Assembly (NCBI GenBank): GCA_947460255.1
Contig: CANHIS010000017.1
Location: 1-50,235 of the forward strand
Direction of reading: 5' to 3'
From: Bacteroidota bacterium
GTDB taxonomy: Bacteria; Bacteroidota; Bacteroidia; M30B66
DNA: 50,235 bases
Numbering within the stretch: the stretch's first letter is position 1; each line of letters opens with the position of its first letter. A program made the position numbers and the translations under genes. The notes beneath the pieces are model-generated. The model saw nothing but the letters and a program-made list of their open reading frames with translations, was not told where the DNA came from and searched no databases. Shown piece after piece: positions 1,117-43,806 of the stretch.

Positions 1117-3417
1117 ATGCGCAACAGAATTTTACTCACCATTTGTTTACTCGCCGGCTTCATAACTGCCTCAGCACAAACAGGAACCGTACGTGGTTTT
1201 GTATTTAACAAGAAGAACGGGGAACCTGTAATCTTCACCAATGTTTTCCTAAAAGGCACCACCATAGGCGCGCAAACAGATGTGAATGGCTTCTATTCAC
1301 TCACAAAAGTTCCTGCAGGCGACTATTTCTTGTCGGTATCTGCCATCGGCTTCGATTCTGTATCCCAGAAAATTACGGTGAAAGCCAATCAGATCGTGCA
1401 ACAGAACCTTTACGCCAAAGAAAAAGAGTTGATTCTCAAGGAATTCGAGATCTCAGGCGACAAAGACAACGAGCAAACCCGCGTCGGCGCATCAGTTACT
1501 ACGATCACTACCAAAGAAATGAACAAGCTGCCAACCATCGGTGCAGAACCCGATTTGGCACAATACCTTCAAGTGCTTCCTGGGGTAACCTTTACGGGCG
1601 ACCAAGGTGGGCAGCTTTACATCAGAGGCGGTTCGCCGATTCAAAACAAAGTACTCCTCGACGGGATGATCATTTACAACCCCTTCCACTCTATCGGTTT
1701 ATTTTCGGTATTCGATACTGATGTAATTCGTAACGTAGATGTATACACCGGTGGTTTTGGCGCCGAATACGGCGGAAGGATCTCCTCGATCATGAAAATC
1801 ACCACGAAAGATGGCGACAAGAAAGGTCTGCATGGAAAACTGTCGGCCTCGCCATTCGTTTCCAAAGTGCAGCTAGAAGGCCCACTGAAGAAGCAAAAAG
1901 AAAATTCGGCAGCTGGATCATCCTTCCTCCTCAGTGGAAGAACTTCGTACCTCAAGGAAAGTGCAGAGCTGTTTTATCCTTATGTTGATACGGCTGGCCT
2001 TCCATTCAACTTCACCGACTTGTACGGTAAACTATCCTTCACGGGCGAAAACGGAAGTAAACTTGGATTGTCGGCCTTTAACTTCCGCGACAAAGTGCGT
2101 TACCGTAGCTTGCAAGACCTCAACTGGAATACTTACGGTGTGGGCACAAGTTTCGTGTTAATTCCAAACACCAGCGGCTTTGTGTTCGATGGCTCTATGA
2201 GTTATTCCGACTACCAAATTAGCCTCGAAGAAGCAAGTAGACCATCTAGAAATAGCCGCATCAGCGGGTTTAACTTGGGCTTGAACTTTAAGTACTTCTT
2301 TGGGAAAAACGACTTCCAATGGGGTGTAGAAACCATCGGATTCTCAACCGATTACACCTTCTTCAACGAAGTAAATCGTGAGATCACCCAACAAGAAAAC
2401 AATTCCGAGCTCGGACTATACATGCGCTACAAAGCCATTCTAGGCAAATTGGTGCTTGAGCCAAGTTTCAGGTTGCAATACTATGCATCGCTTGCGGAGG
2501 CTTCGCCTGAGCCAAGAATTGGAGCGAAACTCAATGTTACCAAAAACTTCCGCCTTAAAGGTGCGGCTGGTATGTATTCGCAAAATCTTATTGCAGGTGT
2601 TTCGGACCGTGATGTGGTGAACCTTTTCTATGGTTTCCTTTCTGCACCAGATAACTCTCCTTCCTCATTTAAAGATGAACAAGTAGATTCGAAACTTCAA
2701 AAAGCGCGTCACTTTATTGTTGGTTTCGAGAGCAACCTCACCAAGTACCTCACCTTGAATGCTGAGGCTTACTACTTTAATTTCAATCAATTAACCAACA
2801 TCAACCGTAACAAGTTGTACGACGACATCCCGGCAAATGCCGATAAACCAGAGGTGTTAAAGTCTGATTATATTTTGGAGCGTGGTGCTTCGCAAGGTGT
2901 AGATGTGGTACTTAAATATGAATACAAGCGCTTGTATGTTTGGGCCGTTTACTCTTTGATGAAAGTAACACGCGAGGATGAGTTGATCGAATATAGTCCA
3001 GTTTGGGACCGCCGCCACAACGTAAATTTCTTGGTGTCTTATACCTTCGGGAAGAACCTCGATTGGGATTTTAACGTGCGTTGGAACTATGGATCTGGAT
3101 TCCCTTTTACCCAAACACAAGGTTTTTACGAAAACATCAATTTGAGCGGTGATTTAGGTTCTAACTTCACCAACAGCAATGGCACTTTAGGAACAGCCTT
3201 TGGGCCGCTAAACAATGGTCGTTTGCCCGATTACCATCGCTTAGACATGAACCTCAAGAAAACCATTGTAACAGGCGAACGTTCGATGCTTGAGTTCACC
3301 GCTGGCGCAACGAACGTTTACAATCGCGACAACATCTTCTATTTCGACCGTATCAAGTTTGAACGCATCAACCAGTTGCCAATTTTATGGAACTTGGGCG
3401 CAAACTTCAAGTTTTAA
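1117..3417 (+). CDS. TonB-dependent outer membrane receptor with carboxypeptidase-like N-domain
   Basis: The 766-residue protein is an outer membrane active transporter powered by TonB. It begins with a signal peptide (residues 1-21, ending ASAQ). A CarboxypepD_reg-like beta-sandwich spans about 24-105 (pattern 'VRGFVFNKKNGEPVIFTNV', then 'TDVNGFYSL'). A plug domain spans about 140-235, with 'LYIRGGSPIQNKVLLDGM' and 'GGFGAEYGGRISSIMKI'. The rest is a beta-barrel rich in aromatic strands ending in Phe (LGANFKF). At this length, and with no SusD partner beside it, it is not a typical SusC; the substrate cannot be read from sequence. I chose the ATG at 1117 because the upstream TTG falls in the promoter box. 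A strong terminator follows, so the gene is probably transcribed alone. Confidence 0.93.
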   Translation: MRNRILLTICLLAGFITASAQTGTVRGFVFNKKNGEPVIFTNVFLKGTTIGAQTDVNGFYSLTKVPAGDYFLSVSAIGFDSVSQKITVKANQIVQQNLYAKEKELILKEFEISGDKDNEQTRVGASVTTITTKEMNKLPTIGAEPDLAQYLQVLPGVTFTGDQGGQLYIRGGSPIQNKVLLDGMIIYNPFHSIGLFSVFDTDVIRNVDVYTGGFGAEYGGRISSIMKITTKDGDKKGLHGKLSASPFVSKVQLEGPLKKQKENSAAGSSFLLSGRTSYLKESAELFYPYVDTAGLPFNFTDLYGKLSFTGENGSKLGLSAFNFRDKVRYRSLQDLNWNTYGVGTSFVLIPNTSGFVFDGSMSYSDYQISLEEASRPSRNSRISGFNLGLNFKYFFGKNDFQWGVETIGFSTDYTFFNEVNREITQQENNSELGLYMRYKAILGKLVLEPSFRLQYYASLAEASPEPRIGAKLNVTKNFRLKGAAGMYSQNLIAGVSDRDVVNLFYGFLSAPDNSPSSFKDEQVDSKLQKARHFIVGFESNLTKYLTLNAEAYYFNFNQLTNINRNKLYDDIPANADKPEVLKSDYILERGASQGVDVVLKYEYKRLYVWAVYSLMKVTREDELIEYSPVWDRRHNVNFLVSYTFGKNLDWDFNVRWNYGSGFPFTQTQGFYENINLSGDLGSNFTNSNGTLGTAFGPLNNGRLPDYHRLDMNLKKTIVTGERSMLEFTAGATNVYNRDNIFYFDRIKFERINQLPILWNLGANFKF

Positions 3418-3467
3418 ATAAGACATACCAAGCATTTAAGAATCAGATTTAACCCTAATCAGATTGC

Positions 3468-3509
3468 AGCCCCAAACTCCTTTAAAAACTAAGGAGTTTG
3501 GGGCTTTTT
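3468..3509 (+). terminator. Intrinsic terminator of the TonB-dependent receptor gene
   Basis: A perfect 15-bp stem (3468-3482 with 3491-3505, AGCCCCAAACTCCTT and its complement) has an 8-nt loop and is followed by TTTTC. It lies 50 bp after the receptor stop codon. Confidence 0.9.
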
Positions 3510-3639
3510 CAATCATAAATCCCCGGACTGAAGTCCGAGGCTGCGGCGTTCACCCTTTCAACTTTTCACTTTAAACTCTTCACTTTAAACTTTTCCGCAG
3601 TGCTCTTTCAATCATAAATCCCCTGATTGAAGTCCAAGG
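3507..3639. repeat. 34-bp direct repeat pair with palindromic GGACT-AAGTCC cores
   Basis: Bases 3507-3540 and 3606-3639 match at 31 of 34 positions (both begin TTTCAATCATAAATCCCC). The first copy carries the short palindrome GGACTGAAGTCC; the second has a degenerate form. Between them is a tandem duplication of TCACTTTAAACT. A related core (GGACTTAAGTCC) recurs near 8061, so this looks like a REP-like family dispersed in the genome. Confidence 0.7.
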
Positions 3640-3649
3640 TTACAAATAA

Positions 3650-3880
3650 CCTGCTCCTTACTGTTTTAAAACCGAAGGCCATGAAACCAAACCCATAACC
3701 TGTATAACATATAAGGTATTACAATCAGAAACAGCCGGAATAGTCGTTGAAAGAAGAATAATTGATAGAGAAACATTTATACCAACCGAAGAGAGTATAT
3801 ATTTGACCGAAGAAGAATTTTTAGGTAGTAGTTTAGGTTTTGAATTGGTAGAGGAGAGAAATAAAGTAGCAACTATCTGA
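3650..3880 (+). pseudogene. Coding-like fragment without a start, unknown family
   Basis: The frame 3650-3880 is open for 76 codons and its second half reads like real protein, with acidic and branched residues in a natural pattern (IVVERRIIDRETFIPTEES, then LTEEEFLGSSLGFELVEE). There is no ATG, GTG or TTG giving a sensible N-terminus and no ribosome binding site. It sits directly after the REP-like repeats. I read it as the 3' remnant of a decayed gene. No family is recognised. Confidence 0.4.
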
Positions 3881-3963
3881 AAGTTATATGCAACCACAGA
3901 GAACTGCCACAAACAACATTCAGCAAGAACCAATTAGAAATATCATAATTTAAAACCTGAGAA

Positions 3964-5106
3964 ATGAATAAATATCTTCTAAATATTAATCACCTATTAC
4001 TGGCATTATTGTTCGTTGTTACATCCTGTAATGGACAGGTTAAAACAGACTTGCCCAACGACAATGTAAATCAACAAACACCAATCGAAGGCGTTCAACA
4101 AAAAATAGTTCGGACACAAGGTGCTACTTCTGGAAATTTAACTTGTGAGTTGCAGGACAAGGATGGCAATCTTTGGTTCAGTACAACTGGGGAAGGTGTT
4201 TACCGCTTTGATGGAAAATCATTTACCAATTATACAACGAAAAATGGGCTCTTTGATAATACTGCGAGTTCCATTATTCAAGATAAATTGGGGAACATCC
4301 TTATTGGCACAAATGCAGGAATATGCAAATATGATGGGAATATTTTTAGCAAATATTTCGAAACGGATACTTTGAACAATCTAAGGATTATTGCCCTTTT
4401 GGAAGATCGGGAAGGAAATATTTGGTTTAGTGCGATGAATAAAGGAATTTACAGGTATGATGGAAACAACCTTTCTAATTTTCTTTACAAATATGAGCAC
4501 CGATTCTTTGGTGATAAGCAAGAAAAAATGATCAGTGATATTATTCAAGATAAAAAGGGCAATATTTGGTTCAGCTCTTTTAATAGAGGTGGTGTTTGGC
4601 GATACGATGGGAAAACCCTTACACATTTTCTTCCATCTACCGATTATTATTTATTCCTCGAAGATGAAAGAAGTAATGCTTATTCTGCTTCCGATAAAAA
4701 ATATGTCCATTCGCCAGACTACATTACTGATGATATGATTTCGTCGATGACAGAAGATAAAGCGGGCAATATTTGGTTTGCCACCAGAAGACACGGAATT
4801 TGCAGATATGATGGGAAAACATTTACAAGTTTTAGAGAAAATGAAGTATTTGTTCGCTATAGTATAATTGCAATTTTAGAAGATAAAAAGGGAATTTTTT
4901 GGCTAGGAACAGATGAAGGCGGTGTCTTCTCCTATGATGGAAAAACTCTTAAAAATTATACCACAACTGATGGACTAATCAACAATTCAGTTCGTAGTAT
5001 TTTAGAAGATAAAGACGGGAATCTTTGGTTTGGAACAAGATCGTTTGGATTGAGTCGTTTTGATGGAAAAACCTTTACCACTTTTTCCGAATACAAAGAA
5101 GAATAA
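3964..5106 (+). CDS. Secreted lipoprotein forming a seven-bladed two-component-regulator propeller
   Basis: The 380-residue protein has a lipoprotein signal with Cys22 (VVTSC). Seven repeats of about 40 residues follow, each of the form 'D.xGNIWFxxxxxGIxRYDGKxF' (first around residue 66, last around 350). This is the Reg_prop (two-component regulator propeller) repeat that forms the sensor part of hybrid histidine kinases in Bacteroidota. Seven repeats make one complete blade set. There is no membrane helix, Y_Y_Y domain, kinase or response-regulator part, so the protein is a free-standing propeller on the cell surface or in the periplasm. A paralogue with the same architecture lies at 21883-22959. 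The ligand or partner is unknown. Confidence 0.85.
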   Translation: MNKYLLNINHLLLALLFVVTSCNGQVKTDLPNDNVNQQTPIEGVQQKIVRTQGATSGNLTCELQDKDGNLWFSTTGEGVYRFDGKSFTNYTTKNGLFDNTASSIIQDKLGNILIGTNAGICKYDGNIFSKYFETDTLNNLRIIALLEDREGNIWFSAMNKGIYRYDGNNLSNFLYKYEHRFFGDKQEKMISDIIQDKKGNIWFSSFNRGGVWRYDGKTLTHFLPSTDYYLFLEDERSNAYSASDKKYVHSPDYITDDMISSMTEDKAGNIWFATRRHGICRYDGKTFTSFRENEVFVRYSIIAILEDKKGIFWLGTDEGGVFSYDGKTLKNYTTTDGLINNSVRSILEDKDGNLWFGTRSFGLSRFDGKTFTTFSEYKEE

Positions 5107-5173
5107 CATAAGATCAAATGAACAATTACGGAAAACATTTTAACGACAGACCTAATGTGAATAGAATGGCAGC

Positions 5174-5310
5174 AGCTAACAACACTTACCCAAAAGTGGC
5201 GGTTTAGTGGTTAAATCAAGCTTTGTGCTTCTATCAAAGTTTCTGCTTGGTTAACAGTGAAGTGCTTCGAAATCGCCACTTTCGGGCAGCCGCAAAACGT
5301 TATTTGGCAT
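5174..5310. repeat. Inverted-repeat element resembling a cassette recombination site
   Basis: This non-coding element begins with GCTAACAAC and ends with AACGTTATTTGGC. Its inner arms, 5192-5205 and 5270-5283, are complementary at 12 of 14 positions (AAAAGTGGCGGTTT against AAATCGCCACTTTC). The outer TAAC...GTTA pairing and the long imperfect hairpin resemble integron attC sites in general layout. From memory, sequences of this type recur between small genes in many Bacteroidota. No integrase is visible in the window, so a recombination role is inference. Confidence 0.5.
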
Positions 5311-5331
5311 AATAAAGAGACAACAAACAAT

Positions 5332-5850
5332 ATGAGACACTTTTTTCCAATCCTCATTTTATTACTTGGATCGACTTCGGTTGCAGAAGCTCAGATCAGT
5401 TATTCTGGACGACTAGAAGCTGGATACCAACATTATTTATTCAGGACTCTAACAGTTGACCCAGGACCTAGTTGGAATGGTTATAATCTCAACGAAGAGC
5501 AAAACGGATTTAACTTTACAACTTCTAACGGACTCGCTTTTGCTAAAAGAAAGTTGTATACCGGCATTGGTTTAGGATACTTGAACTATGAAGGTATTGA
5601 GGGAATTTCAATTTTCGGAGATTTCGAATATTTACCCTCAAATAAAAGATTATCACCTTTATTAAATTTGAGACTAGGCTATAACCATATTTGGAATCAA
5701 TATGAAAATGGAATTGGGTCGATGCATACAGAATTTGGTCTTGGAGTAAATTATAAAATGAAGGAAAAATTAGGCGTTTATATAAAGTCTGGACTACTAA
5801 TTACGCAACAGTCTATTTTGGTACCAATAACTTTAGGTTTTAGATTTTAA
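5332..5850 (+). CDS. Small outer membrane beta-barrel-like protein
   Basis: The 172-residue product starts with a clear signal peptide (residues 1-21, ending AEAQ). The remainder alternates hydrophobic and polar residues in short strands with glycine turns and ends in '...LVPITLGFRF', the terminal aromatic typical of outer membrane barrels. An in-frame upstream start at 5257 would run through the inverted-repeat element and spoil the signal peptide, so the ATG at 5332 is preferred. The gene stands alone between two repeat elements (5174-5310 and 5873-6008), like a gene in a cassette. No family is recognised. Confidence 0.7.
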   Translation: MRHFFPILILLLGSTSVAEAQISYSGRLEAGYQHYLFRTLTVDPGPSWNGYNLNEEQNGFNFTTSNGLAFAKRKLYTGIGLGYLNYEGIEGISIFGDFEYLPSNKRLSPLLNLRLGYNHIWNQYENGIGSMHTEFGLGVNYKMKEKLGVYIKSGLLITQQSILVPITLGFRF

Positions 5851-6092
5851 CGAAAATGGCAGAAAGAATTACGCTGCATAACAACTGGTTAGCGCAATTC
5901 GGGTTTCTGAAGTTCTCATAACCATCAAGTTATTTGGGTTTTTCAGATCAATATGAGACATTTGAGACAACTTATCCCGAACGCCGCCAAGCGCCAAACC
6001 ATTAGTGGAAAACAATGTTTAGAGCATATAAATCGAGTGCACAATCAAAACAGAAAAGTGCAGCACGTTGAGAAATTGGTTAAATTGTAGGC
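5851..6092. other. Intergenic region dominated by a repeat element
   Basis: Apart from the imperfect inverted-repeat element at about 5873-6008 I see no gene in this stretch. The last 80 bases carry no recognisable promoter box. Confidence 0.5.
5873..6008. repeat. Second inverted-repeat element, possible cassette boundary
   Basis: It starts with GCATAACAAC and ends with GCGCCAAACCATTAG. The ends are imperfectly complementary (AACTGGTTAGCGC near 5883 against GCGCCAAACCATTAG near 5991), and an inner TTCGGG (5898-5903) pairs with CCCGAA (5976-5981). The layout matches the element at 5174-5310, with the small outer membrane protein gene between them, but the central sequence differs. The assignment to the same class is tentative. 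Confidence 0.35.
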
Positions 6093-8644: not shown

Positions 8645-8780
8645 AATGATTGTAGTTTTAGGTTGAGTTTTAGAAATCAATAATAAGGTTAAAAATCAAA
8701 TTTCAATTTGAATCAGTTTTTTTTCCTGAGCATCGTGTAATTACACCCGAAATATTCCATGAGAATCACTTGTTTTCACC

Positions 8781-8788
8781 TAAATTTG
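8781..8788 (+). promoter_or_regulatory. -7 box (TAAATTTG) for the ccm cluster
   Basis: TAAATTTG fits TAnnTTTG and lies 17 bp before the ccmC ATG at 8806. It also makes the upstream in-frame TTG at 8770 an unlikely start. Confidence 0.5.
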
Positions 8789-8805
8789 TGCGCTCAAAAT
8801 CACAC

Positions 8806-9552
8806 ATGTCAACAAGCACCTCCGAAACATCTGCTATCGTTCGCCACTGGTGGAAAATAGCAGGCGTTGTTCTTGTTCTGTACTCCCTCATCTGGGGCAT
8901 GCTCGGTGCTGTGCCGCGCCTGTTTGTACTTAACGAAACCATACGCAACCTCTACTACCACGTTACCATGTGGTTTGGCATGATGGCCATGATGGGCGTT
9001 TCGCTCTTCTACAGTATTCGTTACCTCAACAAAAGCAATATCTACGACGATTTCAAGGCCGAACAATTTGCCTTTGCGGGCATCCTTCTAGGCTTGCTCG
9101 GCATCACCACTGGTAGTGTTTGGGCTCGCTTCACTTGGGGCGGTTGGTGGGTGAACGACCCGAAACTGAACGGTGCCGCAATCTCGCTGCTCATTTATTT
9201 CGCTTACCTCATCCTTAGAAACTCGATGGATGAAGAACAAAAACGTGGCCGTGTGGCTGCTGTTTACAACATCTTTGCTTTTGCATTGCTCATGGTTTTC
9301 CTCATGGTTTATCCACGCCTCAACAAAGTGGATAGTTTACACCCAGGCAATGGTGGAAATCCAGCTTTTTCTGCATACGACCTCAACAGTTCGATGCGTT
9401 TGGTGTTTTATCCAGCAGTAATTGGTTGGATCATGATCGGCACCTGGATTTCTACACTCGGCTTCAGAATTAAAAAACTTGAATACCAAAAAATGATGGA
9501 TTCCTTTTCTAACAATGGCAAAGGCATCGAATCAAACAACAATATCTTATGA
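8806..9552 (+). CDS. ccmC: Cytochrome c maturation protein CcmC (heme-handling WWD protein)
   Basis: The 248-residue inner membrane protein belongs to the heme-handling family. It has about six hydrophobic segments, a periplasmic tryptophan-rich WWD-type motif at 112-122 (WGGWWVNDPKL, with Asn where many homologues have Trp), and two conserved histidines on the same face, His52 (NLYYHVTMW) and His180 (SLHPG). In known systems CcmC loads heme onto CcmE with the help of CcmD. Here ccmD and ccmE follow directly, the former overlapping by 4 bp (ATGA). CcmA and CcmB, which normally release holo-CcmE, are not nearby. In some annotations the gene is called ccsA. Confidence 0.9.
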   Translation: MSTSTSETSAIVRHWWKIAGVVLVLYSLIWGMLGAVPRLFVLNETIRNLYYHVTMWFGMMAMMGVSLFYSIRYLNKSNIYDDFKAEQFAFAGILLGLLGITTGSVWARFTWGGWWVNDPKLNGAAISLLIYFAYLILRNSMDEEQKRGRVAAVYNIFAFALLMVFLMVYPRLNKVDSLHPGNGGNPAFSAYDLNSSMRLVFYPAVIGWIMIGTWISTLGFRIKKLEYQKMMDSFSNNGKGIESNNNIL

Positions 9553-9773
9553 AAGCGTTCAAAATCCTCTTCATTTTCTTATTGATGCTCTTCGTTACCC
9601 CATTAATGGCCACCGAAATTCCATTGGGGGCGGAAATGGCTGATGCTTTTCGCGCCGATGGTAAAATATATGTGGTAGTGGCTGTAATCGCCATCGTTTT
9701 TATTGGCTTAGCCGTTTGGCTTTTCCGCCTCGACCGAAAGATTAGCCGCCTCGAAAAGAACCATAAATCCTAA
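9549..9773 (+). CDS. ccmD: CcmD-like small membrane protein
   Basis: The 74-residue protein has an N-terminal hydrophobic segment that may be a signal peptide (ending PLMA), then a short extramembrane stretch, a single membrane helix around 40-60 (VVVAVIAIVFIGLAVWLF) and a basic cytoplasmic tail. Size, topology and position between ccmC and ccmE match CcmD, which stabilises the CcmC-CcmE heme complex. It overlaps the ccmC stop by 4 bp, suggesting translational coupling. Sequence conservation in CcmD is low, so the assignment rests mainly on context. Confidence 0.75.
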   Translation: MKAFKILFIFLLMLFVTPLMATEIPLGAEMADAFRADGKIYVVVAVIAIVFIGLAVWLFRLDRKISRLEKNHKS

Positions 9774-9780
9774 TCAGGCC

Positions 9781-10197
9781 ATGAAAAAAACACACATCAT
9801 TGCCATTCTGCTCATTGCGGTTGCTATCGGCACCATCTTAAGCACCTTCCTCGATTCCTCTACCTACGCTTCCTTTACCGAAGCCATGGAAACTCCAGGG
9901 AAAGAATTTCACGTAGCTGGCAAACTCAACACTGCCAAGGAAATGAGTTACAATCCCGAAAAAAATGCTAACCTGTTTACCTTCTATCTAGTCGACAATG
10001 AAGGACTAGAAAAAAAGGTACTCTTTAACGGCTCAAAACCACAAGACTTCGAACGGTCAGAATCGGTTGTGATTACCGGAAAGGTGAAAGGCAACGATTT
10101 CATCGCCGACAAAATTCTCATGAAGTGCCCAAGTAAATACAACGACGGAAAAGAAGAACTGAAGGAGTTCAAATCGGCTCCATCTGCCTCTCTTTAA
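9781..10197 (+). CDS. ccmE: CcmE heme chaperone, CxxxY variant
   Basis: The 138-residue protein has an N-terminal membrane anchor (about 5-22) and an OB-fold domain (about 42-118) with the usual ending 'VVITGKVKGNDFIADKIL'. Family members carry heme covalently on the His of an HxxxY motif; at that position this protein has Cys116-Pro-Ser-Lys-Tyr120, so the residue is Cys. A CxxxY form is known from archaea and some sulfate reducers, where the pathway also lacks CcmH. The gene lies 8 bp after ccmD and 21 bp before ccmF in an apparent operon. The reading frame around the motif is clean, so the change is not a frameshift effect. Confidence 0.9.
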   Translation: MKKTHIIAILLIAVAIGTILSTFLDSSTYASFTEAMETPGKEFHVAGKLNTAKEMSYNPEKNANLFTFYLVDNEGLEKKVLFNGSKPQDFERSESVVITGKVKGNDFIADKILMKCPSKYNDGKEELKEFKSAPSASL

Positions 10198-10218
10198 GCA
10201 AAATACTGAACCCAAAAA

Positions 10219-12852
10219 ATGATCGATTACCAAGGCGAACACTTGATCTGGGGGCAATTAGGCCACCTCTTTACTATACTTTCTTTTGTAGGTGCATTGC
10301 TCTCCACCATTGCCTACACCTTCGCACACAAAGACCGTCTTTTGCCCGAAGCCAAACAGTGGAAAACCATCGCCAGAACAGGATTTCTCGTTCACTCGGT
10401 TGCCGTTATCGGAATCATCGTAGTGTTGTTCTGGATGCTCTTTAACCACTACTTCGAATTCCACTACGTTTGGCAACACTCCAACAAGGAAATGCCGATG
10501 CAATACATCCTTTCCTGTTTTTGGGAAGGACAAGAAGGGAGCTTCCTCCTTTGGACTTTCTGGAACATGGTGCTGGCAAACCTCCTGATGCGCATTGCTG
10601 GCGCTTGGGAATTTACCACAATGGCCATCATTTCGATGGTACAAATGTTCCTCGCATCGATGCTTCTGGGCGTTTACATTGGCGATGCACACATCGGAAG
10701 CAGTCCGTTCTTGTTACTGCGCAATCATGCCGATTTCATGCACCTGCCTTTTGTGCAGTCGGCGAATTACTTGCAATCTTTAGATGGCCGCGGACTCAAT
10801 CCGTTGCTTCAAAATTGGTGGATGACCATTCACCCGCCAACCCTTTTCTTGGGCTTCTCCTCTACCCTGTTTCCTTTTGCATTTGCACTCGCAGGCTTGT
10901 GGAAAGGTGAATTCCGCGAATGGATTAAGCCTGCACTGCCGTGGACGTTCTTCGGAATTTCCATCCTCGGCACTGGAATCCTCATGGGAGGCGCTTGGGC
11001 ATACGAAGCCTTGAGTTTTGGCGGCTTCTGGGCGTGGGATCCTGTAGAAAATGCTTCCCTCGTGCCTTGGTTAACCTTCGTGGCTGGCGGTCACATTATG
11101 CTGGTAAACAAAAACAAAGGTCAATCACTGCTCACCGCGATATTCCTCATTTTCATCACCTTCATCCTCATCCTTTACTCAACCTTCCTCACACGAAGTG
11201 GAATATTGGGCGACTCTTCGGTACATGCCTTTACAGACTTGGGCATGACGGGGCAGTTGTTGATTTACTTGCTGTTCTTCATTTGGCTGCCATCCGCATT
11301 TATGCTCAAAGGCAATCAGCTCACCATTTGGTTAGCCATTAGTGGTTCGTTGCTGGTGATTAGCTTGGCCACTGGATTCATGAAGTTGGTTACGGCGGCA
11401 TTCCTCATCGCTTCACTCATTATCCTCTTTAGAGGCGTGAACAAAGCTTTGCCGAAACAAACGGATGAAGAAAGTGCCACATCTCGAGAGTTTTGGATGT
11501 TTGTGGGCGCTTTGGTATTGCTCATTTCTGCCTTTCAGATTACCTTCAGCACCTCCACGCCGGTGATCAATAAATTTCTGTCTGGAAATCTCGCCAACCT
11601 ATTCGCCTCGCTCAACGAGATGATGCCCAACGAGATGTTCAAAAAACTTTCGGAAGCGAAACTGGCCCCTCAAAAGGATGTAATTGCACACTACAACGCT
11701 TGGCAAGTACCTTTTGCCTTGGTAATTGCAGTGCTGATGGCCTTTACACAATTCTTGAAGTACAAGAAAACCAACATGGGCGACTTTTGGAAAAAAATCC
11801 TCATTCCAATCGGTGTTTCATTGGTACTTACTGGCTTGCTGGCGGTTTTGGTTGAACTGTCGGATAAAATGCTGCTTCTGCTCATGTTTGCTTCTTTGTT
11901 CACCGTTGTGGCCAACATGGATTACTTGTTTAGAGTGCTCAAAGGAAAAATGCCAAAAGCAGGTCCGTCGATTGCCCATATTGGTTTCGGCTTGGTGCTT
12001 CTCGGTGCTTTAATTTCGACGGGTAAACAGGAGTTTATTTCGAAGAACGCCAGCGCTTTCGATTTGGGAAAAGACTTCCCGAACAACGAAAACATCTTGC
12101 TGGCACGCAACGACACTGTGAAGATGGGCGACTACCATGTGGCTTACCGCGGCGATTCAACTGCGGGTATCAACATTTATTACAACGTCGATTATTTCAA
12201 GAAGAACGAGCAAGGCAAGTACAGCAAAGAATTTACGCTACATCCATTTATCCAAACCAACCCACGGATGGGCAATGTGGCTGAACCTGCAACAAAACAC
12301 TTCCTCCACAAAGACATTTTCACCCACGTTACATACGCCAAAGTTGAAACGCCAGAGGAGAAAACCAAGAAAAAGGACGGCTGGCAAGATCCACAAGACT
12401 ACCAATTGCGCCAAGGCGACACTGTGTTTACCAGCAATGCCATGGTGATTTTGGAAGGCTTAGAAAAAAGTGTTGATCCAGTCAAGTACAAACTGCAGGC
12501 ATCGGATATTGCAGTAGGTGCAAAACTCAAGGTGATGGGCCTCAACGGCGATGTTGGAATGGTTATGCCCGTTTACATCATCAGAGGGTTTTCGACCGCC
12601 TCGATTGATACCACCTTGGATGCAAAAGGCTTGCAGTTTAGCCTCTGGAAGATAGATCCTGAAAAGGAAAGCTTCCACATTCGAATTGCAGAAAAAACAA
12701 CCAATGCAGGCGACTTCATCATCTTGAAAGCCATTGTATTTCCCGGCATCAATATTTTGTGGCTAGGCTGTATTTTGATGGCCATCGGAACCACGCTCGC
12801 TGTTTGGAACCGCATCAAAAAGCCAGCTAAAACCCTTGCAACCGACCAATAA
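10219..12852 (+). CDS. ccmF: Cytochrome c heme lyase subunit CcmF
   Basis: The 877-residue multi-spanning inner membrane protein transfers heme from CcmE to apocytochrome c. Diagnostic features are 'GLNPLLQNWWMTIHPP' (192-207, with His205), the WWD-type motif 'GGFWAWDPVENAS' (268-280) and a conserved His292 (GGHIMLVNK). Many more hydrophobic segments follow, then a periplasmic domain (about 600-840) and a last helix near 850. The length is greater than the E. coli protein because of the large C-terminal periplasmic domain. It follows ccmE by 21 bp. No ccmH or ccmG gene is seen in the cluster. Confidence 0.92.
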   Translation: MIDYQGEHLIWGQLGHLFTILSFVGALLSTIAYTFAHKDRLLPEAKQWKTIARTGFLVHSVAVIGIIVVLFWMLFNHYFEFHYVWQHSNKEMPMQYILSCFWEGQEGSFLLWTFWNMVLANLLMRIAGAWEFTTMAIISMVQMFLASMLLGVYIGDAHIGSSPFLLLRNHADFMHLPFVQSANYLQSLDGRGLNPLLQNWWMTIHPPTLFLGFSSTLFPFAFALAGLWKGEFREWIKPALPWTFFGISILGTGILMGGAWAYEALSFGGFWAWDPVENASLVPWLTFVAGGHIMLVNKNKGQSLLTAIFLIFITFILILYSTFLTRSGILGDSSVHAFTDLGMTGQLLIYLLFFIWLPSAFMLKGNQLTIWLAISGSLLVISLATGFMKLVTAAFLIASLIILFRGVNKALPKQTDEESATSREFWMFVGALVLLISAFQITFSTSTPVINKFLSGNLANLFASLNEMMPNEMFKKLSEAKLAPQKDVIAHYNAWQVPFALVIAVLMAFTQFLKYKKTNMGDFWKKILIPIGVSLVLTGLLAVLVELSDKMLLLLMFASLFTVVANMDYLFRVLKGKMPKAGPSIAHIGFGLVLLGALISTGKQEFISKNASAFDLGKDFPNNENILLARNDTVKMGDYHVAYRGDSTAGINIYYNVDYFKKNEQGKYSKEFTLHPFIQTNPRMGNVAEPATKHFLHKDIFTHVTYAKVETPEEKTKKKDGWQDPQDYQLRQGDTVFTSNAMVILEGLEKSVDPVKYKLQASDIAVGAKLKVMGLNGDVGMVMPVYIIRGFSTASIDTTLDAKGLQFSLWKIDPEKESFHIRIAEKTTNAGDFIILKAIVFPGINILWLGCILMAIGTTLAVWNRIKKPAKTLATDQ

Positions 12853-39622: not shown

Positions 39623-40156
39623 TTATTTATCTGGCTCGAAATCGAGTACAATCGAATTCATGCAGAAACGTTTGTAAGTTGGCGGCGGACCATCATCGAA
39701 AATGTGGCCCAAATGTCCATCACATCTTCCACACAATACTTCTGTTCTAATCATGCCATGCGACTTATCGGTTTCATAGCGCACCGAATTACTTCTTAGT
39801 GCTTCGTAAAAACTTGGCCATCCGCACGAACTTGCGAATTTCGAATCCGATTTAAAAAGAGCGTTTCCGCAAGCCGCGCAATAATAGGTTCCAAGTCCAT
39901 CAAATGCATTATACTTTCCCGAGAATGCGTATTCAGTGCCTTTTTCTCTGGATATGTAATACACGTCGCTCGAAAGCACCTTTTTCCATTCTGCATCTGA
40001 AATATTCAAATGCGTGGTATCGGTTCTTGAGTAATAAGGATTACCTGGTTTTTCGGTGTGCATATCTACTGATGTTTGTTTTGGTATTTCTGATTTATTG
40101 CTGCAACTGCCTATGCAAACAACTGCAGTTAAAATAAGTGAAATCAATCTGAGCAT
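39623..40156 (-). CDS. msrB: Peptide methionine (R)-S-oxide reductase, probably secreted
   Basis: The 177-residue protein has a hydrophobic N-terminus with a possible lipobox (GSC, Cys18), then the MsrB domain: the zinc pairs Cys93/Cys96 (YYCAACGNALF) and Cys142/Cys145 (CGRCDGHLGH), and the catalytic Cys165 in 'KRFCMNSIVL'. It reduces the R-sulfoxide of methionine in oxidised proteins, here most likely in the periplasm. The stop codon lies directly against that of the convergent lipoprotein gene. Length and motifs are normal. Confidence 0.92.
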   Translation of the reverse strand: MLRLISLILTAVVCIGSCSNKSEIPKQTSVDMHTEKPGNPYYSRTDTTHLNISDAEWKKVLSSDVYYISREKGTEYAFSGKYNAFDGLGTYYCAACGNALFKSDSKFASSCGWPSFYEALRSNSVRYETDKSHGMIRTEVLCGRCDGHLGHIFDDGPPPTYKRFCMNSIVLDFEPDK

Positions 40157-40308: not shown

Positions 40309-41628
40309 ATGAAGGTCCAAATTATTCTTGCTGCAGCTGCTTTTTCCATTCAAGTTAATGCCCAAAATGTAGTGCTAAACTCACTACAAGATGCCCAAAA
40401 TCGGGCGTTGTCTTCCAATATTCAACTGCAACAGTCAGAGATCAATCAGAAGTTGGCAAGAACTGATCTGCACCTAACAACAGCTGGATATTTACCATCC
40501 ATCAATTTCACTGCTAATTCAGAATACAACCTCAATTTACCGGTGCAATTGATTCCATCCGAGTTTTTCGGTGGACAACCAGGCACATTTCAAGAAGCGC
40601 GCTTTGGTCGTGACTGGAATTCTACCGCTACGTTCGATTTTAGTCAGCCGATTTTGCATGCCGACAAATTCGCTCAAATCAAGGCTTCGAAATACGCAAA
40701 AGAAGAGGTTAAATTCAACCAAGAAAATCAGAAGCAACAGATCCTTCAGCGCGTATCCTTGCAATATTTAAGTGTATTGGTGCTTCAAGAAAGCCTGCAA
40801 TTAAATCGTGAACTCGATTCTACTGCCATGGCATTGTATGCGAGTACCAAAGCCCGTTTCGATAGACAATTGGTGAGTCAAGTAGATATCAATCGGGCTG
40901 AAAATTTAATGCATCAAACCAAACAACAAACACTACAAATCGAAAGCAACCTAAAACTTGCTATGGTGAATCTATCGGTTTTATTGGGCATCTCAAATTC
41001 TCAAGCGCTAGAATTAAAGGACAAAATTGCGAATTACCAGAATGATAAAAACGTTGTTCAATTAACAGAGAACAACCTTATTCAAGCAGCGAACCGACCA
41101 GCGGTAAAGGCTGCTGATCAAAACATTTTGGCAGCGCAATGGAAATACAGGCAGCAAACCTACAGCATGTTTCCCAAACTCAGCTTGAATTCTAGATATT
41201 CATTTGCTAGTCAAGGTGATACTTGGCTCGGAAATGGCTCCAACAATTTCGATTATGGTGCAGTCGGAATTAATTTATCCATGCCAATTTTTAAAGGTAG
41301 AAGTACTGCAATGAACAGCAAAAAAGCCTTGTATCAATTGGAAAATGCACGCCTTCAAAAGGACCAAACACTGTTAAATTCTTCACAAGAATTACAGGAA
41401 TGGCAAATTCGTTTGTCTGAAAAATCTGCTGCTCAGAAATTGGCAGCTAGAAGAGATGAAATGGCTCGCCAAACCTTAGATTTAAGCTTACAAAACTATG
41501 ATCAAGGCGTAATTTCGTTAGATGCCTTGTTCAACATTTACAACGAATATGTTGCTGCGAGAAACAGTTTCATGCAAACTTCTGCTGATGCCGCAGTGTA
41601 CTCAATTTATTTGAGTCTATCGAAATAA
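40309..41628 (+). CDS. TolC-family outer membrane channel protein
   Basis: The 439-residue protein has a signal peptide (residues 1-18, ending NAQ) and two long coiled-coil halves typical of TolC/OMF proteins ('DAQNRALSSNIQLQQSEINQ', 'VSQVDINRAENLMHQTKQQ', and 'YDQGVISLDALFNIYNEY' in the second half). It should form a trimeric outer membrane channel. Usual partners, a membrane fusion protein and an inner membrane pump, are not adjacent, so it is either an orphan or works with partners encoded elsewhere. The redoxin gene follows after 88 bp. Confidence 0.87.
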   Translation: MKVQIILAAAAFSIQVNAQNVVLNSLQDAQNRALSSNIQLQQSEINQKLARTDLHLTTAGYLPSINFTANSEYNLNLPVQLIPSEFFGGQPGTFQEARFGRDWNSTATFDFSQPILHADKFAQIKASKYAKEEVKFNQENQKQQILQRVSLQYLSVLVLQESLQLNRELDSTAMALYASTKARFDRQLVSQVDINRAENLMHQTKQQTLQIESNLKLAMVNLSVLLGISNSQALELKDKIANYQNDKNVVQLTENNLIQAANRPAVKAADQNILAAQWKYRQQTYSMFPKLSLNSRYSFASQGDTWLGNGSNNFDYGAVGINLSMPIFKGRSTAMNSKKALYQLENARLQKDQTLLNSSQELQEWQIRLSEKSAAQKLAARRDEMARQTLDLSLQNYDQGVISLDALFNIYNEYVAARNSFMQTSADAAVYSIYLSLSK

Positions 41629-41716: not shown

Positions 41717-42223
41717 ATGAAATACATCCTTTCAATTCTTCTACTCACTCTCGGTTCTACACTGAACTTTGCCCAAACAGACAGTTTGAAGGTCATCGTA
41801 TTTCTTTCAGAAACTTGCCCGATCTGTAAAAGCACCACACCTGAATTGAGGAAATTGCATGATGAATTTGCCTCAAAAGGTGTTGAATTCATGGGCGTTT
41901 TTCCTAGTCAAACTGCTACAAACACAAGCATCAGAAAAGCTTTTGCAGAAAAGTACAAACTTCCGTTTTTGCTTACCGATGATCCTCTGCAAACCCTAAC
42001 AAATCAACTAAGTGCACAGATTACGCCCGAAGTGTTTGTGATTAATAAGAAAAACAATCAACTGATATACAGAGGATTGATCGACAATTCATACATTCGT
42101 GTGGGCAAAAGGAGATCAATAACTACCGAGTTTCATCTTCGAAACGCCCTCGAACAATTCTTTGCAGGGAACCTTGAGCAAATAAAATCAACTGAAGCCG
42201 TAGGTTGTATCATTCAAAAATAA
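41717..42223 (+). CDS. Secreted redoxin (thioredoxin-fold protein, AhpC/TlpA-like)
   Basis: The 168-residue protein has a signal peptide (residues 1-20, ending NFAQ) and a thioredoxin-fold domain with the active-site pair Cys34-Pro-Ile-Cys37 ('FLSETCPICKSTTPELRKL'), then 'GVEFMGVFPSQ' and the cis-Pro region 'AQITPEVFVINKKNNQLIYRG'. It is likely a periplasmic disulfide reductase or peroxiredoxin-like partner. The stop is 2 bp before the ATG of the cytochrome/copper monooxygenase gene. From memory, fused proteins with redoxin, cytochrome c and copper monooxygenase domains in this order exist in other phyla. Confidence 0.85.
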   Translation: MKYILSILLLTLGSTLNFAQTDSLKVIVFLSETCPICKSTTPELRKLHDEFASKGVEFMGVFPSQTATNTSIRKAFAEKYKLPFLLTDDPLQTLTNQLSAQITPEVFVINKKNNQLIYRGLIDNSYIRVGKRRSITTEFHLRNALEQFFAGNLEQIKSTEAVGCIIQK

Positions 42224-42225
42224 CA

Positions 42226-43806
42226 ATGCAATTTATGAAATACCGTATCTTATTTTCAATCTTGCTTTTTAGCGCCACTCTTAGCCTTCGGGCGCAAAGC
42301 GTGACCTTTTCGGAGCATATTGCACCGATCATCTATAACCATTGCACGAATTGCCACAGACCAGGTGAAATTGGTCCGTTTTCACTCACCAATTACAACG
42401 AAGTGGTGTCATATGGCTCTATGATTCAATATGTTACCGACATTAACTACATGCCGCCGTGGAAGCCTGATCCGAACTATCGCCAATACCAAAAGGAAAA
42501 CTATTTATCTGCGGAGCAAAAACAACAAATTTCCACTTGGGTAAATGATGGCATGCCGCAAGGAAATCCGGCACTTGAACCACCATTGCCAGTATTTCCA
42601 ACTGGTTCGCAAGTGGGCGTGCCCGATTTAGTGCTCTCCTTCGCAGAAGCCCATACCGTTCCGGGAAACAACATCGATGAATACATCTACTTTGTCATCC
42701 CAACGGGACTTACAGAAGACAAATTGATTCGCTCATTAGAATTCCGTCCGGGAAATACGCAGGTTGTTCACCACACGCTCATTTGGGAAGATACCACTGG
42801 TGCCGCGGCCGCGGAAGATGCACTCACGCCAGAATATGGCTATTTCGGCGGACAAGCAACAGCTGAAGTGCTAGAACAACAGCAACTTCCTGGGTATCTG
42901 CCCGGATCAGCGCCAGTTATCTACACCAATGGAATCACCCAAAAACTGCATGCTGGCGCAGATTTGAAGCTCCAGATGCACTATGCGCCCACTCCGATCG
43001 AACAAACAGATTCTTCAACCATCAATGTCTTTTTCGAAAATTCAAATGCTAACCGATTGCTGCAAACCTATATCATGGTTCCACTTCCCGGAGTGCTCGT
43101 AAATGGTCCGTTTATCATGCCGCCCAATCAAGTAAAGGAATTTCATGGCACTTTCACTGTTCCATTTGATGTGAGTTTGTTTTCCATCTCGCCACATTGC
43201 CATAAACTTGGAACACATTGGAAGGTTTATGCAGTGCCTCCAACTGGAGATACAATCCCACTAATTTCTATCGAAGATTGGGATTTCAATTGGCAAGGCT
43301 CATATCAGTTCCGTTCACTTTTAAAAGTTCCAGCAGGTTCTGTCATTCATGCGTTTGCTGGTTACGACAACACGGTGAATAATCCGTTCAATCCGAATAG
43401 TCCACCCGAATTCGTAACCTGGGGCGAAGGCACAGCGGATGAAATGTTTTATTTACCTATTTCATTCTTGCCTTACCAAGCTGGAGATGAGAATATTGTG
43501 TTTGAAGATGGCTCCGTTGGAGACCTCAACATCAAAACGATATCCGACAAGCTGTACCCAATTTATCCAGTGCCTGCGTCCGATTTAATTAAGTTTGGTT
43601 ATACGCTCGAAACCAGCGGACAAGTAAGCTTAAGCATTTTCAATATCGAAGGGAAACTCGTTCAGCAAGTGCATCAAAACAGTTTCCATTTGCCAGGTTA
43701 TCACACCAAAGAATTAAATGTTTCCGAATTAACTCCTGGAATTTATTTCCTTGAATTTGTAAAAGGAAACCTACGCCAAACGGAGAAATTCGTTATTGGC
43801 GAATAA
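42226..43806 (+). CDS. Secreted cytochrome c / PHM-like copper monooxygenase fusion with T9SS tail
   Basis: The 526-residue protein has a signal peptide (ending LRAQ). A heme c motif Cys40-x-x-Cys-His44 ('YNHCTNCHRPGE') sits in a short cytochrome domain. A copper type II ascorbate-dependent monooxygenase-like module spans about 135-425. It has the His pair 182-183 ('QVVHHTL') and His252 ('LQMHYAP'), matching the CuA ligands of PHM, and His324-x-His326 ('SPHCHKLG') and Met407 ('ADEMFYL'), matching the CuB ligands. A T9SS sorting domain follows ('YPIYPVPASDLIKFGY' to 'KFVIGE'). Substrate unknown. Either ATG at 42226 or 42235 is possible. Confidence 0.85.
   Translation: MQFMKYRILFSILLFSATLSLRAQSVTFSEHIAPIIYNHCTNCHRPGEIGPFSLTNYNEVVSYGSMIQYVTDINYMPPWKPDPNYRQYQKENYLSAEQKQQISTWVNDGMPQGNPALEPPLPVFPTGSQVGVPDLVLSFAEAHTVPGNNIDEYIYFVIPTGLTEDKLIRSLEFRPGNTQVVHHTLIWEDTTGAAAAEDALTPEYGYFGGQATAEVLEQQQLPGYLPGSAPVIYTNGITQKLHAGADLKLQMHYAPTPIEQTDSSTINVFFENSNANRLLQTYIMVPLPGVLVNGPFIMPPNQVKEFHGTFTVPFDVSLFSISPHCHKLGTHWKVYAVPPTGDTIPLISIEDWDFNWQGSYQFRSLLKVPAGSVIHAFAGYDNTVNNPFNPNSPPEFVTWGEGTADEMFYLPISFLPYQAGDENIVFEDGSVGDLNIKTISDKLYPIYPVPASDLIKFGYTLETSGQVSLSIFNIEGKLVQQVHQNSFHLPGYHTKELNVSELTPGIYFLEFVKGNLRQTEKFVIGE

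Follow-up and report, generated by a model that had tools for sequence, protein, structure and literature searches.

The window, i.e. the whole 50,235-nucleotide stretch analysed here, comes from a freshwater-type Bacteroidota bacterium and encodes a 526-residue protein that almost certainly combines a c-type heme domain with a PHM-type copper module (Table 1). The best explanation, and probably the right one, is that the protein is secreted, belongs to the type 2 copper monooxygenases of the PHM/DBH superfamily, carries a heme c domain of its own for electron transfer and has a redoxin as partner. PHM and DBH are the textbook uncoupled dicopper enzymes of animals and some other eukaryotes, in which the coordination of electrons and O2 between the two distant coppers is debated; in animals their fold serves peptide hormone and noradrenaline synthesis. 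The copper superfamily is already known. No paper on a bacterial cytochrome c-PHM fusion or on its pairing with a redoxin was found in the open-licence literature, and because the search was limited to such papers this absence is weak evidence. On our best reading, the family forms a bacterial branch, so far uncharacterised, within the type 2 copper monooxygenases.

Domain architecture and metal ligands

The open reading frame, its frame and all residue numbers given by an earlier sequence-only reading were correct, counting from an ATG that lies two bases past the stop codon of the upstream redoxin gene. Cleavage of the signal peptide is predicted after residue 24. The C-terminal sorting domain scored above the cut-off of both PF18962 (Por_Secre_tail, E=1e-12) and TIGR04183 (E=1e-9), and a profile search of the genome recovered SprA (2563 bits) together with at least 150 T9SS tails, in agreement with the export route that had been proposed. 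Judged by its tail, the protein is a predicted T9SS cargo of the cell surface. It contains the cysteines C40, C43 and C325 and no others.

Table 1. Features of the heme-copper gene, the adjacent redoxin gene and the Ccm cluster (positions are those of the window)
Feature	Residues	Position	Strand	Basis or correspondence
CcmC-like		8770-9552	+	PF01578 over cut-off
CcmE		9781-10197	+	PF03100 over cut-off
CcmF		10219-12852	+	PF16327 over cut-off
Redoxin, thioredoxin fold, Sec signal peptide, no T9SS tail		41717-42223	+	Redoxin E=4e-13, AhpC-TSA 1e-12
Redoxin CPIC	C41 (from TTG)	41816-41827	+	
Redoxin C-terminal GCxI Cys	C171 (from TTG)	42206-42208	+	
Cytochrome c / PHM-type copper protein	526 aa	42226-43806	+	ORF and translation, homologues, AlphaFold2 model
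Signal peptide (predicted), MQFMKYRILFSILLFSATLSLRAQ	1-24	42226-42297	+	sequence reading; hydrophobic helix 6-19 predicted
Class I-like cytochrome c domain	28-113	42307-42564	+	conserved heme ligands
Heme motif C-T-N-C-H	C40, C43, H44	42343-42357	+	CxxCH; conservation
Putative distal heme ligand (MPPW)	Met76	42451-42453	+	invariant in family
PHM N-like domain	about 134-299	42625-43122	+	HMM and MAFFT alignment to PHM
CuH ligands (predicted)	H182, H183	42769-42774	+	PHM H107, H108
CuH ligand (predicted), in MHYAP	H252	42979-42981	+	PHM H172
PHM C-like domain	about 300-420	43123-43485	+	HMM and MAFFT alignment to PHM
CuM ligand (predicted)	H324	43195-43197	+	PHM H242
CuM ligand (predicted)	H326	43201-43203	+	PHM H244
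Family signature W-D-F-N-W-Q	W352-Q357	43279-43296	+	alignment, 88 rows
CuM ligand (predicted), in DEMF	M407	43444-43446	+	PHM M314
T9SS type A C-terminal sorting domain	446-524	43561-43797	+	PF18962, TIGR04183

The cytochrome c domain, previously recognised from its CxxCH motif, was supported, with C40, C43, H44 and M76 conserved at 99-100% among 86-87 homologues and the heme domain kept in all relatives with a complete N-terminus. M76, which was absent from the sequence-only reading, is the probable distal heme ligand. The Cytochrome_CBB3 profile gave the window protein alone 15.7 bits against a cut-off of 27, and of the 38 relatives searched with it 27 matched at E<=0.01. A Ccm cluster (8770-12852, forward strand) is found on the same contig, about 30 kb from the heme-copper gene and outside its operon; its CcmC-like, CcmE and CcmF products could load the heme.

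The six copper-ligand positions were compared with rat PHM by two routes, an HMM alignment and a MAFFT placement of the PHM sequence. The earlier claim of a PHM/DBH-like module carrying every ligand position was upheld, each of the six residues aligning with its PHM counterpart. The same HMM alignment and independent MAFFT placement put Q250 and Q357 at PHM Q170 and Q272. The CuM ligands of PHM, its Q170 and the substrate roles of R240, N316 and Y318 are here taken to be as generally understood. The identities of the CuH ligands in PHM follow published work (PMC6123673).

Across 89 sequences, 10 of the 28 His, Met or Cys positions were at least 95% conserved, and these were exactly the expected heme and copper ligands (C40, C43, H44, M76, H182, H183, H252, H324, H326 and M407; 98-100%). 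None of the other 18 reached that level, M4 standing at 84% and the remainder at 51% or below. This pattern is far beyond chance. Considered by site, the CuH ligands were 98-99% conserved (88 rows) and the CuM ligands 99-100%, while the equivalents of Q170 and Q272 were kept in 75 and 88 of 88 rows, respectively.

Similarity to the copper monooxygenase families, which the sequence-only reading had implied, failed to reach the cut-offs for the single sequence and was recovered with a family profile. In the single-sequence search, Cu2_monoox_C (PF03712) scored 14.3 bits, below its cut-off of 23, and PF01082 gave no match. Because these scores were sub-threshold, relatives were collected. Of 60 relatives' genomes, 27 passed the Pfam cut-off for PF03712; among 38 relatives, 11 matched Cu2_monooxygen at E<=0.01; and a profile built from those 38 (A1) and searched against the PDB gave E=3e-11 for rat PHM and E=1e-8 for human DBH. 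Since relatives pass PF03712 and A1 matches PHM so strongly, the weak score of the single sequence reflects distance rather than absence. The protein is assigned to the PHM/DBH family on its family profile and modelled structure rather than on the single sequence.

An AlphaFold2 model produced from A1 had a mean pLDDT of 85.8, with low confidence only in the signal peptide, a loop near residue 211 and the linker at 429-438. In a Foldseek search with this model, every one of the 31 best PDB matches was a PHM or DBH structure (E 9e-14 to 9e-10, probability 1.00, spanning about 300 columns), and the next class of match was more than three orders of magnitude weaker in E than the last of these, with a TM score near 0.13. 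Normalised by target, TM scores were 0.56-0.66 for PHM and 0.36-0.39 for the longer DBH chains, at an rmsd of 5-9 Å; the moderate TM (0.6 by PHM length) and this rmsd suggest that the two domains may be placed differently with respect to each other. The convergence of the ligands proposed as a check in the sequence-only reading was assessed indirectly, at the level of fold match and residue equivalence.

Family distribution and the redoxin neighbour

The system had been thought an unusual one, and this did not hold: whole-genome search found the heme-copper fusion in 34 of 60 near relatives and in 21 of 296 genomes from across the phylum, and one GTDB genome scan yielded 45 loci which, going by their record titles, represent at least eight phyla (Bacteroidota, Latescibacterota, Gemmatimonadota, Planctomycetota, Acidobacteriota, Armatimonadota, Myxococcota and Pseudomonadota). 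The window protein groups with the Bacteroidota in a maximum-likelihood tree. Five Latescibacterota copies (L021-L025; 47-49% identical to the window protein) fall inside the Bacteroidota clade, apart from the other Latescibacterota copies, a placement that suggests either transfer or an old duplication. These five have no recognised T9SS tail, and other Latescibacterota and Gemmatimonadota copies (e.g. L036) carry C-terminal TPR repeats in its place. Two signatures mark the family, D381-N382 and WDFNWQ; in the latter, F354 and Q357 were present in 88 of 88 rows, W352 and W356 in 87 and N355 in 61.

The redoxin gene directly upstream was not included in the sequence-only reading. Its reading frame opens at TTG 41696, from which its residues are numbered, and ATG 41717 is the likely start. 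Searched against the PDB, the redoxin family profile found 2ywi best (E=3e-26), then 2cvb and later DsbE and ResA, and the redoxin model likewise matched 2ywi and 2cvb best. The protein shares its fold and the GCxI motif with uncharacterised PRX-like thioredoxin-fold proteins (2ywi, 2cvb/2ywo, 3u5r), and then with DsbE/ResA, but differs from the PRX-like group in being exported, in being tied to the oxygenase gene and in its CPIC motif, which is CPxS in most relatives. Residues common to the relatives in the redoxin alignment (A2) were F36, C41, T110-P111, Y125, G127, I129-D130, R140 and G170-C171, with C41, G170 and C171 invariant. Because most relatives have CPxS, C41 and C171 are the likely working pair.

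A redoxin was adjacent to or fused with the oxygenase in 28 of 40 assessable relatives, i.e. loci with enough flank (26 adjacent, two fused). Of 35 genomes that encode the oxygenase, 20 had a strong redoxin match (E<1e-39, a threshold set at a gap in the list), compared with 0 of 26 genomes that lack it (Fisher p=7e-7). This co-occurrence is biased since the profile was built from neighbours, and it comes from genomes which are not independent; 19 of the 20 matches adjoin the oxygenase gene.

It is very unlikely, in our judgement, that the redoxin has no functional link with the oxygenase and has stayed beside it by chance or through a general conservation of operon order. The 12 assessable relatives without an adjacent redoxin are consistent with such an origin, and the entire MsrB-TolC-redoxin-oxygenase-Gate block keeps its gene order within the window's lineage, so that adjacency within this lineage alone is weak evidence. 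Against this, adjacency recurs in five phyla (Bacteroidota, Latescibacterota, Gemmatimonadota, Planctomycetota and Acidobacteriota) and in both gene orders, the order being reversed in L026 and in further pairs at L074, L082 and L090, and there are three independent-looking fusions (L028, L044 and L092). The L028 fusion (4054-6039, forward strand), in a planctomycete record, has the order redoxin-cytochrome-oxygenase, and its redoxin part is without both conserved cysteines.

With a signal peptide and no T9SS tail, the redoxin, as the likely partner, should in Bacteroidota stay periplasmic while the oxygenase leaves. This arrangement favours a role in maturation over one in turnover, and we lean slightly towards the view that it serves maturation, through reduction of the apocytochrome as in ResA/CcmG or through copper loading.

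The redoxin gene is preceded by a TolC-type gene (40309-41628, forward strand) and, before that, by a gene for an MsrB-domain protein whose N-terminus resembles that of a lipoprotein (39623-40156, reverse strand); the closest relatives, L009 and L011, share this gene order. TolC, MsrB and the Gate protein were rejected as functional partners, their synteny being limited to this close lineage (L009, L011) and TolC not being found beside the redoxin in L010. Downstream neighbours outside the Bacteroidota formed lineage-specific clusters only.

Relation to known enzymes and proposed function

With PHM (PDB 1PHM, 1OPM, 3MLJ) the window protein shares a two-domain fold of about 300 residues, the HH...H and HxH...M ligand patterns, the equivalents of Q170 and Q272, and secretion. 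It differs in its low identity (about 15%), in the N-terminal heme c, in the WDFNWQ signature (NPQLPQ in PHM) and the DN signature, in the T9SS tail and in the redoxin partner. DBH (PDB 4ZEL) likewise has the copper module and its ligands and carries an extra domain N-terminal to the module; that domain is a DOMON domain in DBH, whereas in the window protein it is a CxxCH c-type cytochrome, and the latter is bacterial, exported to the surface and about 15% identical. The relatives that pass PF03712 fall among bacterial PF01082/PF03712 proteins of uncharacterised function, and automatic annotation would name them copper type II ascorbate-dependent monooxygenases. A secreted heme domain that feeds an extracellular copper monooxygenase is known from the cytochrome domain of fungal cellobiose dehydrogenase and LPMO. 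This is a functional analogy only, as it involves heme b, another copper enzyme and separate proteins, and no homology is claimed.

By its modelled fold and its ligands, the protein would be placed in the PHM/DBH superfamily, and by its substrate residues it would not be an amidating enzyme. A true peptidylglycine hydroxylase acting on secreted peptides would account for the fold and the copper ligands, PHM being the nearest solved structure, but R240, N316 and Y318 of PHM correspond to Ser322, Tyr409 and Pro411, positions that vary within the family (89 rows), and peptidylglycine is therefore an unlikely substrate. Furthermore, the copper-module disulfides of PHM are lacking, the only conserved Cys columns are those of the heme motif, and a PAL lyase domain was found neither in the protein nor in the scanned neighbouring genes. 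Peptide amidation was rejected as the function on the substrate residues, the disulfides and the lyase domain, and we regard it as exceedingly improbable.

For the favoured copper monooxygenase, we infer metal occupancy, catalysis, a direction of electron flow and a redoxin role along the following lines. Sec would export the protein, and Ccm would attach heme c to C40 and C43 in the periplasm, where the redoxin may keep the CxxCH motif or the copper-site region reduced, or may aid metal loading; T9SS would then carry the folded protein to the cell surface. There, the Met/His heme would give electrons singly to CuH (H182, H183, H252), and CuM (H324, H326, M407) would bind O2 and hydroxylate a C-H bond of a substrate other than peptidyl-glycine. 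Hydroxylase function is plausible, and oxygenase activity is likely.

That the heme is the electron donor to the copper sites is reasonably probable, if less so than the oxygenase activity itself. Electrons might instead come from ascorbate-like or phenolic small molecules, with the cytochrome c serving to dock, to sense redox state or to protect (e.g. by peroxide removal). Neither PHM nor DBH requires a heme partner, the protein is extracellular with no obvious electron carrier encoded nearby, and the heme domain sits on a linker and could act separately. Nevertheless, CxxCH and Met76 are conserved as strictly as the copper ligands, the fusion holds across phyla, and a Met/His-ligated heme typically transfers electrons and does not act as a peroxidase, so that we hold the small-molecule source to be unlikely.

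Less likely still is a protein that is no oxygenase, i.e. a surface copper/heme electron-transfer or metal-sensing protein built on the PHM fold. The replacement of R240, N316 and Y318 would fit such a role, as would one natural copper-defective form: L046 (5959-8121, forward strand; record titled Woeseia sp. MAG) has lost its CuH ligands (R, R, T) and has Tyr for H324 of CuM, yet keeps the heme motif, H326 and Met407, which suggests that some family members do another job. Apart from L046 and L029, in which H183 is Tyr, both copper sites are kept in all relatives complete there, and this argues for an oxygenase, as do the retained Q170 and Q272 equivalents and the CuM Met. That Met is needed for catalysis in PHM.

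More broadly, and tentatively, since we put it at somewhat less than an even chance, the family may represent widespread bacterial self-reducing copper monooxygenases, in which electrons come from a heme c wired to CuH instead of from ascorbate, maturation or recharging of the enzyme falls to a dedicated redoxin, and a substrate unlike those of PHM and DBH is attacked at the surface or in the periplasm. If true, this class could be a bacterial sister lineage of the animal enzymes that make hormones and neurotransmitters, and the family would raise the question of the origin of eukaryotic PHM and DBH. If active, these proteins would add extracellular C-H hydroxylation to the abundant Bacteroidota, Latescibacterota, Acidobacteriota and Planctomycetota. 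The bacterial family, which keeps all six ligands, lacks disulfides and carries a heme that could serve as a spectroscopic reporter of electron delivery, could also provide an easily expressed model.

A distant second Bacteroidota family, with no member in the window's genome, combines a T9SS tail and Cu2_monoox_C with an N-terminal CX3CH motif (L101:1437-3119, reverse strand; L102:1499-3274, forward strand; L103:1108-2793 and 3022-4725, forward strand). The placement of CX3CH before the copper module in this second branch suggests that the pairing of heme c with a copper enzyme is a recurring bacterial design. The motifs themselves (CTVGCH, CTVSCH, CTFGCH and CTGSCH) are unusual heme-type motifs with three intervening residues.
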